Shown in pieces: positions 28,397 to 58,996 of a stretch of 64,000 nucleotides of DNA. The position numbers were made by a program, and so were the translations under genes. The number at the start of each line of letters is the position of its first letter. Within the stretch, counting starts at the first letter, position 1. The notes beneath the pieces were generated by a model. The model saw only the letters and a list, made by a program, of their open reading frames with translations. It ran no database searches and was not told the DNA's origin. The stretch is from the NCBI GenBank assembly GCA_947476065.1, contig CANJPG010000005.1, forward strand, positions 1-64,000, read 5' to 3'. Source of the DNA: Fidelibacterota bacterium. GTDB taxonomy: Bacteria > Pseudomonadota > Alphaproteobacteria > Rhodospirillales > Rhodospirillaceae.

Positions 28397-29697
<1,301 letters not shown>

Positions 29698-29735
29698 TTG
29701 CGCCATCCTCGGGACAGCGGGGCTCCTGATAGGAA

Positions 29736-29890
29736 GAATCATAAGAATCAAAGCCTTACGATTGTTTAATGAGATGCGCAATGAAGTCTGTGGATAACCC
29801 CAGATGTTGAGTCCGCCGAGTCGCGGGACTCCACCCCTAGCGGTCGGGGGAGGCGGTCTGAAATTTTCTGCAGAAATATTTCGGCGAGTC
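29736..29890. promoter_or_regulatory. phased GANTC array upstream of ccrM
   Basis: Six GANTC sites in 155 bases: 29736, 29745, 29809, 29818, 29827 and 29886. Sites at 29736/29745 and at 29809/29818/29827 are spaced exactly 9 bp (GANTC-N4-GANTC). A DnaA box lies between the two sub-arrays. Base composition predicts about 0.5 sites. Caulobacter ccrM is itself controlled through GANTC methylation at its promoter, so this region is the likely ccrM control region. No canonical CtrA site was found. Confidence 0.55.
29789..29797 (-). promoter_or_regulatory. DnaA box in ccrM upstream region
   Basis: A perfect TGTGGATAA (reverse of TTATCCACA) lies 280 bases before the ccrM start and 12 bases from a triple GANTC array. 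The neighbouring 16-bp block at 29812-29827 is shared with the YbjN upstream region, which also has a DnaA box. A DnaA role in ccrM control is inferred. Confidence 0.4.
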
Positions 29891-56357: not shown

Positions 56358-56404
56358 TCACAACATTTAGCGCTTGACGGGCGGAGCGAAACTATATCTA
56401 GCAG
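56358..56404. promoter_or_regulatory. pair of NrdR-box-like sites upstream of nrdA
   Basis: Two 16-base sites, 56358-56373 (TCACAACATTTAGCGC) and 56389-56404 (AAACTATATCTAGCAG), are separated by 15 bases, the three-helical-turn spacing typical of NrdR operators. By hand they match about 11 and 12 of 16 positions of the recalled consensus. NrdR represses ribonucleotide reductase genes. The gap 56047-56650 has no protein gene I can support and also holds two GANTC sites (56119, 56176). Confidence 0.45.
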
Positions 56405-56650
56405 TTCTTAAGGGGCGGACTCAGGTTCTTCGCACAATGCATTGATTTCAATCGCGAAAAAAATGTGACGCGGAGGTTACAGTCGGCAGCGTTTTTTGAG
56501 CGCTTTCGTGCGATTTGGCGGTTTTCCGCCACCTTTCAACTATGCAGCCGCGGCAATGCTGTGTTGCACAATTCCCCTTTGCCCGGACCGGCGACCTGCC
56601 TCATACAGCCGCCAAGCACCCACCTGACACAGGACTACGAGGGGACCGCC

Positions 56651-56875
56651 ATGGTGACGCTGACCGACGACCAACGCGGATTGATCGACTACCTAGCCGA
56701 CAAGGTGCACGAACTGACGGCCTCCGCCACGGGAACCACGGGCGTCGAGGCGACCGACCTCATGCGGGAAGCCCAAGAGCTGACGGCGATCCGCGGCAGC
56801 ATCATCGACCGCGCCCATGCGGCCGAAAATGCCGCCCAGCTGCAATTACCGCTCGAATTGAGGAAGGCTGCCTAA
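56651..56875 (+). CDS. small helical protein of unknown function
   Basis: 74 residues from the ATG at 56651, with GAGGGG 6 bases upstream and a strong terminator after it, so it is a well-formed single-gene unit. The sequence is helical and acidic (LTDDQRGLIDYLADKVHELTASATG, then LMREAQELTAIRGSIIDRAHAAENA). There is no signal or membrane segment. I do not recognise a family. It diverges from nrdA across about 600 bases. Confidence 0.65.
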   Translation: MVTLTDDQRGLIDYLADKVHELTASATGTTGVEATDLMREAQELTAIRGSIIDRAHAAENAAQLQLPLELRKAA

Positions 56876-56905
56876 CAACCAAGAACTCGACAACGAGTCT
56901 TGAAG

Positions 56906-56932
56906 AACCCGGCCCTCGCGGCCGGGTTTTTT
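56906..56932 (+). terminator. terminator of the 74-residue protein gene
   Basis: Perfect 9-bp stem AACCCGGCC / GGCCGGGTT with a 5-base loop, then TTTTTT. It lies 30 bases after the stop codon. Confidence 0.92.
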
Positions 56933-56967
56933 ATTGTCCGCGCTTTAGAGGCGCGGAAATTAAGAAA

Positions 56968-56979
56968 GATTCACGATTC
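56968..56979. promoter_or_regulatory. double GANTC element before the 57-kb sRNA
   Basis: GATTCACGATTC has two GANTC sites two bases apart, followed directly by GTTAAC (56980-56985). The same 12-mer lies upstream of HU at 42930-42941. It sits some 20-30 bases before the presumed sRNA start. A CcrM/GcrA-type control is inferred. Confidence 0.4.
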
Positions 56980-56999
56980 GTTAACGGCTCCCGGGAAAG

Positions 57000-57101
57000 A
57001 TGCGGCTACGGATTTAACGCTGGGGCATTTCTCCTCCCTCCCCACCCCACAACCCCAGCAAACTCAGCGGCGGATCTTTTAGATCCGCCGCCTTTCTTTT
57101 T
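57000..57101 (+). ncRNA. candidate sRNA with C-rich anti-SD loop (locus C)
   Basis: This is the clearest of three similar loci. GCTGGGG (57019-57025) and CCCCAGC (57053-57059) form a perfect 7-bp stem around a 27-base C-rich loop containing CTCCTCCCTCC, which is complementary to Shine-Dalgarno sites. A terminator follows at 57068-57101. Bases 57035-57056 are identical to 29617-29638. No protein gene reads into the terminator because the upstream gene already ends at 56932. The architecture resembles alphaproteobacterial CUCCUCCC-loop sRNAs. The 5' end is approximate. Confidence 0.45.
57068..57101 (+). terminator. terminator of sRNA locus C (copy 1)
   Basis: Perfect 9-bp stem CGGCGGATC (57068-57076) / GATCCGCCG (57082-57090) with a TTTTA loop, then CCTTTCTTTTT. 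It has a decayed tandem copy just downstream. Confidence 0.85.
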
Positions 57102-57102
57102 A

Positions 57103-57148
57103 GGGCGCGCAGCGCCCGGCGGATCTTTTAGATCCTCGGCCTTTCTTT
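57103..57148 (+). repeat. decayed tandem copy of the terminator
   Basis: A second copy of the CGGCGGATCTTTTAGATCC unit at 57117-57135 is followed again by CTTTCTTT, but its 3' arm reads GATCCTCGG, so only five pairs remain near the loop. Between the copies GGGCGC/GCGCCC (57103-57108, 57112-57117) forms another hairpin. This is a local duplication of a terminator. Confidence 0.75.
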
Positions 57149-57162
57149 GCTATAAGCGACCC

Positions 57163-57669
57163 ATGATTTATTTCGCCTACGGCGCCAATCTCAATCTGCG
57201 CGGCATGAAGCGCCGCTGTCCGAAAGCCCGGCCGCTGATGGCTGCAACTCTGCCGGGCTATCGGTTCGAGTTCCGCACCTTTGCGACTATTGTCGCCGAT
57301 GCACAGGCGGAAGTGCCGGGCGCGTTGTATGAGCTGACGCCGGCCTGCTGGCGCGCGCTCGACGGCTATGAAGGGCCCGAATACAAAAAGATCACTGTGA
57401 CGGTGAACACCGCCGAAGGCCCGCGCGAGGCCACTGCCTACATCATGGCGAGCGGCAAACGCGCGGCGCCGTCTATGGCCTACTGCGGCGACATCGCGCG
57501 CGGCTACAGCGATTGGAAGCTGGACGCCAAGCTGTTGCAGCGGGCGCGCTACGCCACGCTGTTTCCCGATAAGCCCGAGAGAGTGAGGCAAGAATCTACG
57601 CGGCCAGGCCCTGCACCGCCAGGATTCGCGAGGCCCGGAGTCACTAGGCCGGTGAAGGAGACGCCGTAA
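57163..57669 (+). CDS. gamma-glutamylcyclotransferase (AIG2-like)
   Basis: 168 residues. The fold signature is IYFAYGANLNLRGMKRRCP, with the substrate-binding Tyr-Gly-x-Asn loop, and the catalytic Glu lies in GYEGPEYKKITVTV. It turns gamma-glutamyl peptides into 5-oxoproline. The Pro/Arg-rich tail (ESTRPGPAPPGFARPGVTR) is not part of the domain and overlaps the flippase gene by 26 bases. No Shine-Dalgarno precedes the ATG. A TATAAG -10 element ends 6 bases before it, suggesting a leaderless message. Confidence 0.85.
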   Translation: MIYFAYGANLNLRGMKRRCPKARPLMAATLPGYRFEFRTFATIVADAQAEVPGALYELTPACWRALDGYEGPEYKKITVTVNTAEGPREATAYIMASGKRAAPSMAYCGDIARGYSDWKLDAKLLQRARYATLFPDKPERVRQESTRPGPAPPGFARPGVTRPVKETP

Positions 57670-58996
57670 CGCGCCGGCGCAGCTGGGTCGCGGTGAACAG
57701 CGTCATGGCGCATAGGCTTGCCGCCGCCGTTGCCAGCGAGGCGATGGCTGCCCCCGTCGGGCCATAGGTGCGCGTCAGCAGAATCAGCGTCGGCAGATAG
57801 ACGCCAACGATCACCACAGTCTCGATGCGCAGCGCAATGCTGGGCCGGCCCATGGCATAGAGCGCGGGTTCCATAGGAAAGCCGCACAGCGTCAGGCCCG
57901 CCGTTGCCACCAAGAGGATCAAGGGAATATAGGCCTCGATGAAGGTCGCGCCGAAGAAGGTGCTGATGAACAGGTGCCCCGCGAACAGCGAGATCACCAG
58001 CATCGCCGCACCACCCGAGGCCGCCACGGCGGCACCTCTTAGAATCAGCGCCTTGAAATCCTGCCAGTCGCCGCGGCTGCCGATGCGCGCGAACTCGGGG
58101 TAGATCGACTGGTTGAGCAGCTCGGCGGGCTTGGAGATGGCGGTGGCCACATCGCGGCCGATCTTGAACAGGCCGGCCGCAGCAGGCCCCGCCAAGGCGC
58201 CCACCAAAATCGTGCTCATCTGCGCGGTGACGATCTGCAGCGAGGAATGCAGGTTTGAGAAGATCGAGAACTTCCAGATGCCGCCGTGGGGCGCCGTGAT
58301 GCCCTCCAGTGACAGCGTCATACCTTTGAGCCAGCCGCGGCGGTAAGCTTCGCGCCAGCCGATGAACACCAGCACCGCGCCGCCGGCCACGCTGGCGACG
58401 AACCAGGCCGCGAGATAGGCCCACAGCGGCGCATCCAGCATCACGGCAATGCTGACGCCGATCAGCCGGCAGAGCGGCGTGACCACCGCTTGGCCCGCGA
58501 GCAGCGCAAAACGGTCGAACAGGCGCAAGAGGCCCGTGGGGGTAGCTAGCACCGTGAACAGCAATTGCAGGCTGAAGATCTGGGCATAGCCGATGACCTC
58601 GGCGCTCCAGCCGATATAAGGGCCGACCAGAGGTGCGGCGATGAAGCCGATGGCGGCGCCGGCGAACACGCCGGCAATATCGAGCAGCGTGGTGAACTTG
58701 ATCAGCGCCTGGAAGGCCGCCGTGTTCTTGTTCTCCATGCAGATGGCGCCATAACGGATCACCGCCTGCCACGACTGGAAGGTGGCCAGCGCCATGATGA
58801 CTTGAATATAGGTGGTCAGCAGCACGAAGACGCCGAACTGCTCGAGGCCAAGGCCGCGCGCCGACAGGCTGAGCATGGCCAGGCCGAACAGCCCGTTAGT
58901 CGCGCGGCCCGAGAGCAACAGCGTTGCGTTCTTGAAGATGCGCCGTAAGGTGCCGTCGGCGAACCAGTGCCGGACGGTATGGATGATCTTGCTCAT
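57644..58996 (-). CDS. polysaccharide flippase-like membrane protein
   Basis: 450 residues with about twelve membrane helices, matching the oligosaccharide flippase (Wzx/MATE-like) superfamily. The N-terminal FKNATLLLSGRATNGLFGLAMLSLSARGLGLEQFGVFVLLTTYIQ is typical. It would move lipid-linked sugars across the inner membrane for O-antigen or exopolysaccharide. No glycosyltransferase genes adjoin it. Its 3' end overlaps the cyclotransferase gene convergently by 26 bases. Confidence 0.87.
   Translation of the reverse strand: MSKIIHTVRHWFADGTLRRIFKNATLLLSGRATNGLFGLAMLSLSARGLGLEQFGVFVLLTTYIQVIMALATFQSWQAVIRYGAICMENKNTAAFQALIKFTTLLDIAGVFAGAAIGFIAAPLVGPYIGWSAEVIGYAQIFSLQLLFTVLATPTGLLRLFDRFALLAGQAVVTPLCRLIGVSIAVMLDAPLWAYLAAWFVASVAGGAVLVFIGWREAYRRGWLKGMTLSLEGITAPHGGIWKFSIFSNLHSSLQIVTAQMSTILVGALAGPAAAGLFKIGRDVATAISKPAELLNQSIYPEFARIGSRGDWQDFKALILRGAAVAASGGAAMLVISLFAGHLFISTFFGATFIEAYIPLILLVATAGLTLCGFPMEPALYAMGRPSIALRIETVVIVGVYLPTLILLTRTYGPTGAAIASLATAAASLCAMTLFTATQLRRRVTASPSPA

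Follow-up and report, generated by a model that had tools for sequence, protein, structure and literature searches.

Which role can be assigned to a C-rich hairpin that stands in front of a cyclotransferase gene, and why do 22 of its bases recur within the same 64,000-nucleotide stretch of DNA (the window), where 57035-57056 is exactly identical to 29617-29638, as first noted? The original prediction took the hairpin and the terminator behind it for a separate small RNA (sRNA) gene that belongs to a three-member family.

The sRNA gene and its conservation

The hairpin and its neighbours are arranged as follows:

56651..56875, + strand: upstream neighbour, a 74-aa protein of no known family with its own terminator (56906-56932)
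56960..56985, + strand: conserved promoter-like block TTAAGAAAGATTCACGATTCGTTAAC, with TTAA, GATTC (56968-56972), GATTC (56975-56979) and TTAAC
57015..57100, + strand: sRNA gene body, delimited by the match to covariance model R1 (104.3 bits), conserved structure and fold z-score
57019..57059, + strand: putative target-recognition hairpin, 7-bp stem and 27-base C-rich loop (57026-57052)
57067..57101, + strand: intrinsic terminator, 11-bp stem (57067-57091), TTT loop and T-rich tail
57163..57669, + strand: downstream neighbour, gamma-glutamyl cyclotransferase (AIG2-like), 168 aa, Pfam PF06094

In agreement with the original reading, the small upstream gene owns the terminator at 56906-56932, which is read in the sequence and was scored by the scan in a 5-bp version, and the gene behind the sRNA matches gamma-glutamyl cyclotransferase (PF06094). 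The hairpin also has the perfect stem described for it (GCTGGGG, 57019-57025, with CCCCAGC, 57053-57059), and its loop holds CTCCTCCCTCC. The terminator with its T-rich tail is present, but the stem comprises 11 bp and not 9. A simple terminator scan of 56400-57700 found three terminators at 2.0 expected, which is unremarkable by itself; the fold of the sRNA is more stable than all of 200 shuffled sequences (z -4.94). The transcript probably starts some 5-15 bases upstream of 57015, and its predicted length is about 85-100 nt. A partial second copy of the sRNA terminator (GGCGGATCTTTTAGATCC...) is seen just 3' of the sRNA, at 57118-57147, and comparable terminator repeats were found by eye in G013, G016, G005 and G008.

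In the block at 56960-56985, which is also seen in the loci of relatives, two TTAA boxes flank a pair of GANTC (CcrM) sites. Within the 64-kb window, the TTAA..GANTC..TTAA arrangement occurs only here, and no sigma-70-type consensus promoter was found in 56400-57700 (0.4 expected). A GANTC site followed by TTAA within 14 bases precedes 25 of 28 hairpins, where G015 was counted via a wrong site, its true block being visible further upstream. The pattern was missed in G066, G095 and G022, and the promoter region of G066 is cut by the end of the contig. Several copies (G026, G014, G006, G002, G012) have a single GANTC only. In the window genome, in G026 and in the group G002/G005/G006/G012, the first GATTC is located 43-51 bases before the hairpin.

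The original prediction had made the standing of the element depend on its conservation in close relatives. It is conserved: a DNA search of 61 genomes (the window's own and 60 relatives) detected it in 17, and the 17-copy covariance model gave matches of at least 42 bits in 28 of 73 family genomes. The 17-copy alignment forms two helices with 18 pairs, and 96.4% of the cells pair. Eight of the 18 pairs have changed on both sides, which one of 500 shuffles reached, and the covariation score of the alignment was reached by none of 500. Within the recognition stem, pairs vary as GC:12 AU:5 and GC:16 AU:1, while six of the 11 terminator pairs show changes on both sides. With an E value of at most 1e-8, the same model matched eight of 248 genomes sampled from the order, all eight of them inside the family; this confinement to the family marks the element as a structured RNA that is conserved in a narrow clade. 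Among named genomes, a pattern scan gave 21 stretches, fourteen of which bear labels such as Rhodospirillaceae, Caenispirillum, Candidatus Marinimicrobia, Alphaproteobacteria or uncultured bacterium, with the lakes Baikal and Erken appearing in two of the labels; the other seven are labelled Streptomyces, cyanobacterium, Puniceicoccales or Rhodopirellula.

Five weaker model matches (G024:C7 with 43 bits, G004:C8 with 40 bits, G065:C14, G073:C1 and G035:C221) were considered as paralogues and rejected, as they lack the CCCTCCCC loop and are mainly terminator hairpins. Since such hairpins score up to 43 bits, about 40 bits can be reached without the target-recognition part. Besides these five, four other weak matches were inspected individually, and one of them, G064:C3, is a true copy in damaged form. 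The 42-bit match of G022 was retained for two reasons: it has the loop, and over 86 bases its DNA shares 79% identity with the copy of genus g2.

Compensatory structure, the conserved upstream block and the own terminator hence lend good support to the separate small RNA gene that had been proposed. The region 57015-57100 is a conserved, stand-alone structured RNA gene with its own terminator and with predicted expression.

An Rfam scan of the 64-kb window at gathering scores returned a single tRNA and nothing else. Membership in the suhB/alpha-r14 type, as originally suggested, was not confirmed. suhB (mmgR) is an alphaproteobacterial sRNA ending in a terminator, and in this respect the RNA described here is alike; its model score, however, stays below the threshold, with 16.9 bits at 57018-57105 against a gathering score of 41 for suhB/mmgR (RF00519), as does that of alpha-r14 (RF02344), with 15.6 bits against 58.8. 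CcsR1 (RF02791; 14.6 bits against 65.3) and the best sub-threshold matches, Xoo2 (23.3 of 45 bits) and sX11 (20.7 of 70), were likewise rejected. We take the Rfam families ar14 and CcsR1 to be linked to the RNAs SmelA075 and SmelA099. The CcsR1 loop motif CCUCCUCCC is found in none of the 17 aligned copies, the invariant part of which is CCCUCCCC; the copy of G012, which is outside this alignment, does contain CCUCCUCCC. A suhB/mmgR search of the own genome, in which 150 of 295 candidates were scored, gave weak matches at G000:C42:14513-14580 (31 bits) and G000:C54:2636-2705 (29.7 bits), and the sRNA locus was not among the matches.

In nine of the first 17 copies (G001, G003, G004, G007, G009, G011, G013, G015, G016), a reading frame of 55-78 codons is located between the promoter block and the hairpin, and in eight of these nine it opens with MxRTE. 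Pfam, at a threshold of 0.001, assigned no family to the 74-aa protein of the window and none to the small frames of three relatives (best value 0.19). In the nine frame-bearing relatives, the RNA may form the 3' part of an mRNA. No such frame is present in the window genome, G010 and G014, which have kept block and hairpin and share a supported CcrM clade with G001, G009, G011, G015 and G016. The absence of the frame within one CcrM clade, with block and hairpin retained, suggests that the RNA and not the peptide is the selected unit; the CcrM tree gives no count of the losses of the small frame.

The ccrM leader as predicted partner of the loop

The second copy of the 22 bases is located upstream of a gene on the opposite strand:

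28397..29509, - strand: ccrM, GANTC adenine DNA methyltransferase, 370 aa, ATG at 29509 (translation, NF050803, Pfam)
29538..29564, - strand: ccrM leader hairpin, 12 bp, GC-rich, with a pyrimidine tail, between G-rich element and start codon
29617..29638, - strand: predicted target site, G-rich element GGGGTTGTGGGGTGGGGAGGGA, exact complement of sRNA 57035-57056
29736..29769, - strand: ccrM promoter region, with TTAA-N7-TAA (29769-29756), which we take to be CtrA-like, and GANTC at 29749-29745 and 29740-29736

The encoded protein is identified as CcrM by NCBIfam NF050803, with 634 bits over 347 residues, a score below the strict cut-off of 830, and by the Pfam domains N6_N4_Mtase and RAMA. The distance from the G-rich element to the ccrM start codon is about 110-130 nt in the window genome and 70-249 nt across the 15 leaders that were folded, and the promoter region lies upstream of the element. 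Conserved blocks run from the GANTC-bearing promoter region to the start codon, which suggests that the G-rich element is part of the 5' leader. A strict TTAA-N7-TAA pattern precedes ccrM in just 9 of 22 leaders and was therefore left out as an argument. The leader hairpin at 29538-29564 could be an attenuator. Similar hairpins were seen by eye in several close relatives, and in the leader of G003 a run of eight T follows a GC-rich hairpin.

A 26-base consensus with up to three mismatches finds these two places in the window only and nothing in 100 shuffles, while no enrichment is seen for the short motif CTCCCTCCCC by itself (2 occurrences at up to one mismatch, 5.45 expected). In the own genome, the 16-base G-rich core has exact matches in the ccrM leader and in the sRNA gene only; ten further matches all carry three mismatches, and a reversed-pattern control gave 11. 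The three-member family fell away, as the 17-copy model finds a single full copy in the window (104.3 bits) and no third member. The third model match in the window is the terminator palindrome read backwards, and at 29601-29681 the model reaches 23 bits with 6 of 18 pairs non-standard. As the 29617 copy lies on the antisense strand of the ccrM leader, and as sRNA and leader have co-evolved, it is better explained as a target. The supposed family thus appears to consist of a regulator and its target, a variant of known sRNA regulation.

Two related sRNAs would exist if the + strand at 29601-29700 was also transcribed, as an RNA antisense to the ccrM leader with its own terminator, which we consider most unlikely. 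In seven genomes, the strand antisense to the ccrM leader does score 22.1-28.5 bits with the model, and a T-run follows the 29617 copy on the + strand. This T-run is, however, the A-run of the sense strand between conserved leader parts, and neither a terminator nor a promoter was scored on the + strand in 29480-29820. The 23 bits compare with 104 bits for the sRNA, and up to 43 bits are reached by terminator hairpins without the C-rich loop. With its non-standard pairs and no scored signals on the + strand, an antisense RNA at 29600-29700 was rejected as unsupported.

To evaluate the co-occurrence of the two parts, 48 ccrM leaders from the 73 family genomes were used, from 30 loci returned by the search and 25 that were chosen, partly for their model matches. 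The remaining family genomes contributed no leader, some for want of usable upstream sequence; G004 was dropped as the region upstream of its ccrM is cut off, and G007 and G067 have no full leader. The core GGTGGGGAGGG is found in 22 of the 48 leaders, and no ccrM locus examined carries its reverse complement on the sense strand. The sRNA is present in 19 of the 22 core-positive genomes and absent in 20 of the 26 core-negative ones (Fisher p 1.3e-5, uncorrected for relatedness). The core-positive genomes without a strong sRNA match are G008, where the contig leaves 119 bases in front of the cyclotransferase gene, G017, which is 76% complete and has no cyclotransferase match, and G064, which carries a damaged copy with hairpin and terminator on different contigs. 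In the hairpin of G064, a CTTCT repeat has expanded in the loop and the CCCCAC part is lost; the core of its ccrM leader is intact. Hairpin and terminator each adjoin the same inverted-repeat end (26 of 27 bases alike), an arrangement that an inserted element would leave.

The six core-negative genomes with an sRNA are five of genus g2 (G019, G091, G092, G095, G096) and G022. The leader of genus g2 keeps just (A)TCGTGGGG, which by eye pairs over 8-10 bases with the 3' part of the loop, while in the ccrM leader of G022 no convincing partner for the sRNA was found. By eye, the diverged sRNA copies of g2 and G022 are mostly located in other gene neighbourhoods. G094, with no detectable sRNA, has a broken TCGTGGGG part (GTGTGG), and in G093, also with none, this part is intact. 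In G020, the cyclotransferase gene and, as judged by eye, the same upstream gene are present without an sRNA in between, and the ccrM leader is without the core.

The shared sequence could also be a DNA element at two promoters, either a protein-binding site or a G-quadruplex, with no RNA pairing involved. A sense-strand G-quadruplex pattern is indeed seen in 10 of the 22 leaders. It is absent from the other 12, which is why the G-quadruplex reading was rejected, whereas all 22 keep the core complementary to the sRNA. Moreover, one of the copies is the loop of an RNA hairpin with covarying stems before a terminator, and relative to transcription, the two loci have the sequence in opposite orientations wherever a leader carries the core. 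We give hardly any credence to an explanation at the DNA level.

The trans-pairing tests comprised 19 of the 25 genomes with both parts, as the core register is missing in genus g2 and G022. In re-dealing and shuffle tests, which correct for relatedness in part only, a fixed register on the core gave 367 of 475 paired cells compared to a mean of 340 with re-dealt leaders (0 of 20000 reach this value), and 29 cells changed on both sides compared to 12.8 (0 of 20000). For nine subgroup representatives, 172 cells paired against 160.5 (30 of 20000). Counted by position, changes on both sides are not striking (10 against 7.6; 1356 of 20000). As the core (CCCTCCCCAC) hardly varies, it is mainly the sequence 3' of the core that contributes to the covariation. 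Five bases past the core, the pair is C-G in 11 of the 19 genomes, U-A in 4 (a four-genome group) and A-U in 1 (G015), and the base is unpaired in 3; G015 belongs to a supported CcrM clade in which the seven other members that have both parts show C-G. The lengths of the second C-run and the G-run move together (4/4, 3/3, 1/2), with the exception of G035, where the match is broken (C4 against G3). Mismatches in the pairing of sRNA and leader occur in G026, G010 and G011. With G-U allowed, contiguous pairing extends over 20-24 bases in 5, 13-16 bases in 10, and 10-11 bases in 4 of the 19 genomes.

In 25 genomes, the duplex energy of the loop is -39.3 kcal/mol with the own leaders and -36.9 kcal/mol with foreign ones. 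Since raw energies depend strongly on the leader, row- and column-centred energies were used for the permutation test, which gave p 5e-5 in all three groupings, the minimum possible with 20000 draws. When all 48 bases of the sRNA segment are used, own and foreign leaders differ less clearly, with p 0.006 inside g1 and 0.02-0.03 in the other groupings. Before centring, leaders from the group of the window genome form good duplexes with the sRNAs of all groups, and groups c, g7 and g18 (g18 being a single genome) have a better partner than their own leader. Overall, pairing between the sRNA and the ccrM leader is well supported; by sequence alone, the RNA has a conserved pairing with an mRNA encoded elsewhere, as a trans-acting sRNA does.

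Proposed action on ccrM

The RNA is probably a trans-acting sRNA dedicated to the ccrM mRNA, the C-rich loop of which would pair with the complementary G-rich element in the 5' leader and act as a repressor. We infer with moderate confidence that pairing in the cell would repress the ccrM mRNA, either by cleavage of the duplex or by blocking a standby site. In the window genome, the perfect 22-bp duplex could be a substrate of RNase III. Cleavage would fit best with a duplex of >20 bp as in this genome; with contiguous pairing over 20-24 bases in 5 of the 19 genomes, the case for RNase III applies to a minority. As to blocking, the site GGGGAGG is similar to a ribosome standby site (Shine-Dalgarno-like). 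Folding of 15 leaders revealed no consistent shift in the accessibility of the ribosome site when the element was blocked.

EcpR1 of Sinorhizobium meliloti is said to target dnaA and gcrA. Like the predicted sRNA it is a trans-sRNA modulating cell-cycle genes, and in the main text of the EcpR1 paper ccrM appears in the reference list only (PMC4414408). In its manner of action, the sRNA is most similar to CcnA of Caulobacter crescentus, a cell-cycle sRNA described as binding GGGG in the 5' UTRs of ctrA and gcrA with the CCCC of its Loop A (PMC8959179). In both cases a C-rich loop would act on the G-rich leader of a cell-cycle regulator, a comparison drawn from the description of CcnA. CcnA differs in the targets described, ctrA and gcrA and not ccrM, in the location of its gene at the replication origin, and in the four-base core that its description stresses, compared to 10-24 contiguous pairs here (PMC8959179). 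GsrN of Caulobacter likewise pairs a C-rich loop with a G-rich mRNA leader, but is described as a general-stress sRNA with many targets that has seven bases complementary to katG and is activating (PMC5869019). The CCUCCUCCC-loop RNAs SmelA075 and SmelA099 share C-rich, anti-Shine-Dalgarno-like loops with the sRNA; they are reported to contain three and four similar hairpins per RNA, whereas a single hairpin with one dedicated partner is found here (PMC3927594). An sRNA acting on the messenger of a DNA methyltransferase is described in Brucella, where BASI74 concerns a cytosine-N4 enzyme and not CcrM (PMC6146029).

Two of these systems bear on the main alternative, in which pairing of the sRNA would activate or protect the ccrM leader, by opening the leader hairpin that binds the element to an upstream C-rich arm. 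The element is mostly paired inside the predicted leader folds (mean unpaired probability 0.17-0.39 in 15 genomes), GsrN is reported to enhance katG expression through a C-rich loop on a G-rich leader (PMC5869019), and CcnA has been proposed to free the ribosome site of ctrA (PMC8959179). The predicted accessibility of the ribosome site on binding, however, goes up in e.g. G012 and G013 and down in G000, G015 and G024, and we regard activation as rather unlikely, though worth keeping in mind.

The ccrM messenger might also be a sponge, titrating an sRNA that mainly targets other mRNAs at G-rich or Shine-Dalgarno sites. Many Shine-Dalgarno sites would be possible partners for a CCUCC-type loop, and the Caulobacter sponge CrfA is described as masking the C-rich sRNAs SisA-D (PMC12559287). 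A sponge is nonetheless improbable, as no other near-complement of the 16-base core was found in the genome and as the loop tracks the ccrM leader also outside its Shine-Dalgarno-like core. The general pairing of the CCTCC loop with Shine-Dalgarno sites that the original prediction had put forward is superfluous, since the single dedicated long partner suffices to explain the loop.

Returning to a repressive sRNA, the GANTC sites in its promoter region raise the possibility that CcrM methylation could tune the sRNA and thereby close a feedback on CcrM synthesis. CcrM would methylate GANTC in the sRNA promoter, the sRNA would then shut the ccrM mRNA off, and the burst of enzyme would be limited. 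A scenario is conceivable in which a dedicated pair and a feedback loop from CcrM and GANTC via the sRNA to ccrM go together with an sRNA that was once the 3' part of an mRNA for a small protein and became independent when the reading frame was lost, or with the opposite course of events, but we propose this combination tentatively and lean against all of its parts holding jointly.

Among the open-access papers listed by the literature searches, none reported an sRNA acting on ccrM; targets of Caulobacter ncRNAs are predicted in PMC5988900, and ccrM is absent from Table 2 of that work. As the pairing is long and has a single partner, the prediction is directly testable.

CcrM is a global cell-cycle methyltransferase in alphaproteobacteria, and the brief period of its synthesis is put down to transcription driven by CtrA and to proteolysis by Lon. 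A dedicated sRNA, if true, would add a post-transcriptional layer to the control of CcrM and, if the sRNA promoter reads GANTC methylation, a direct feedback from the methylation state to the methyltransferase.
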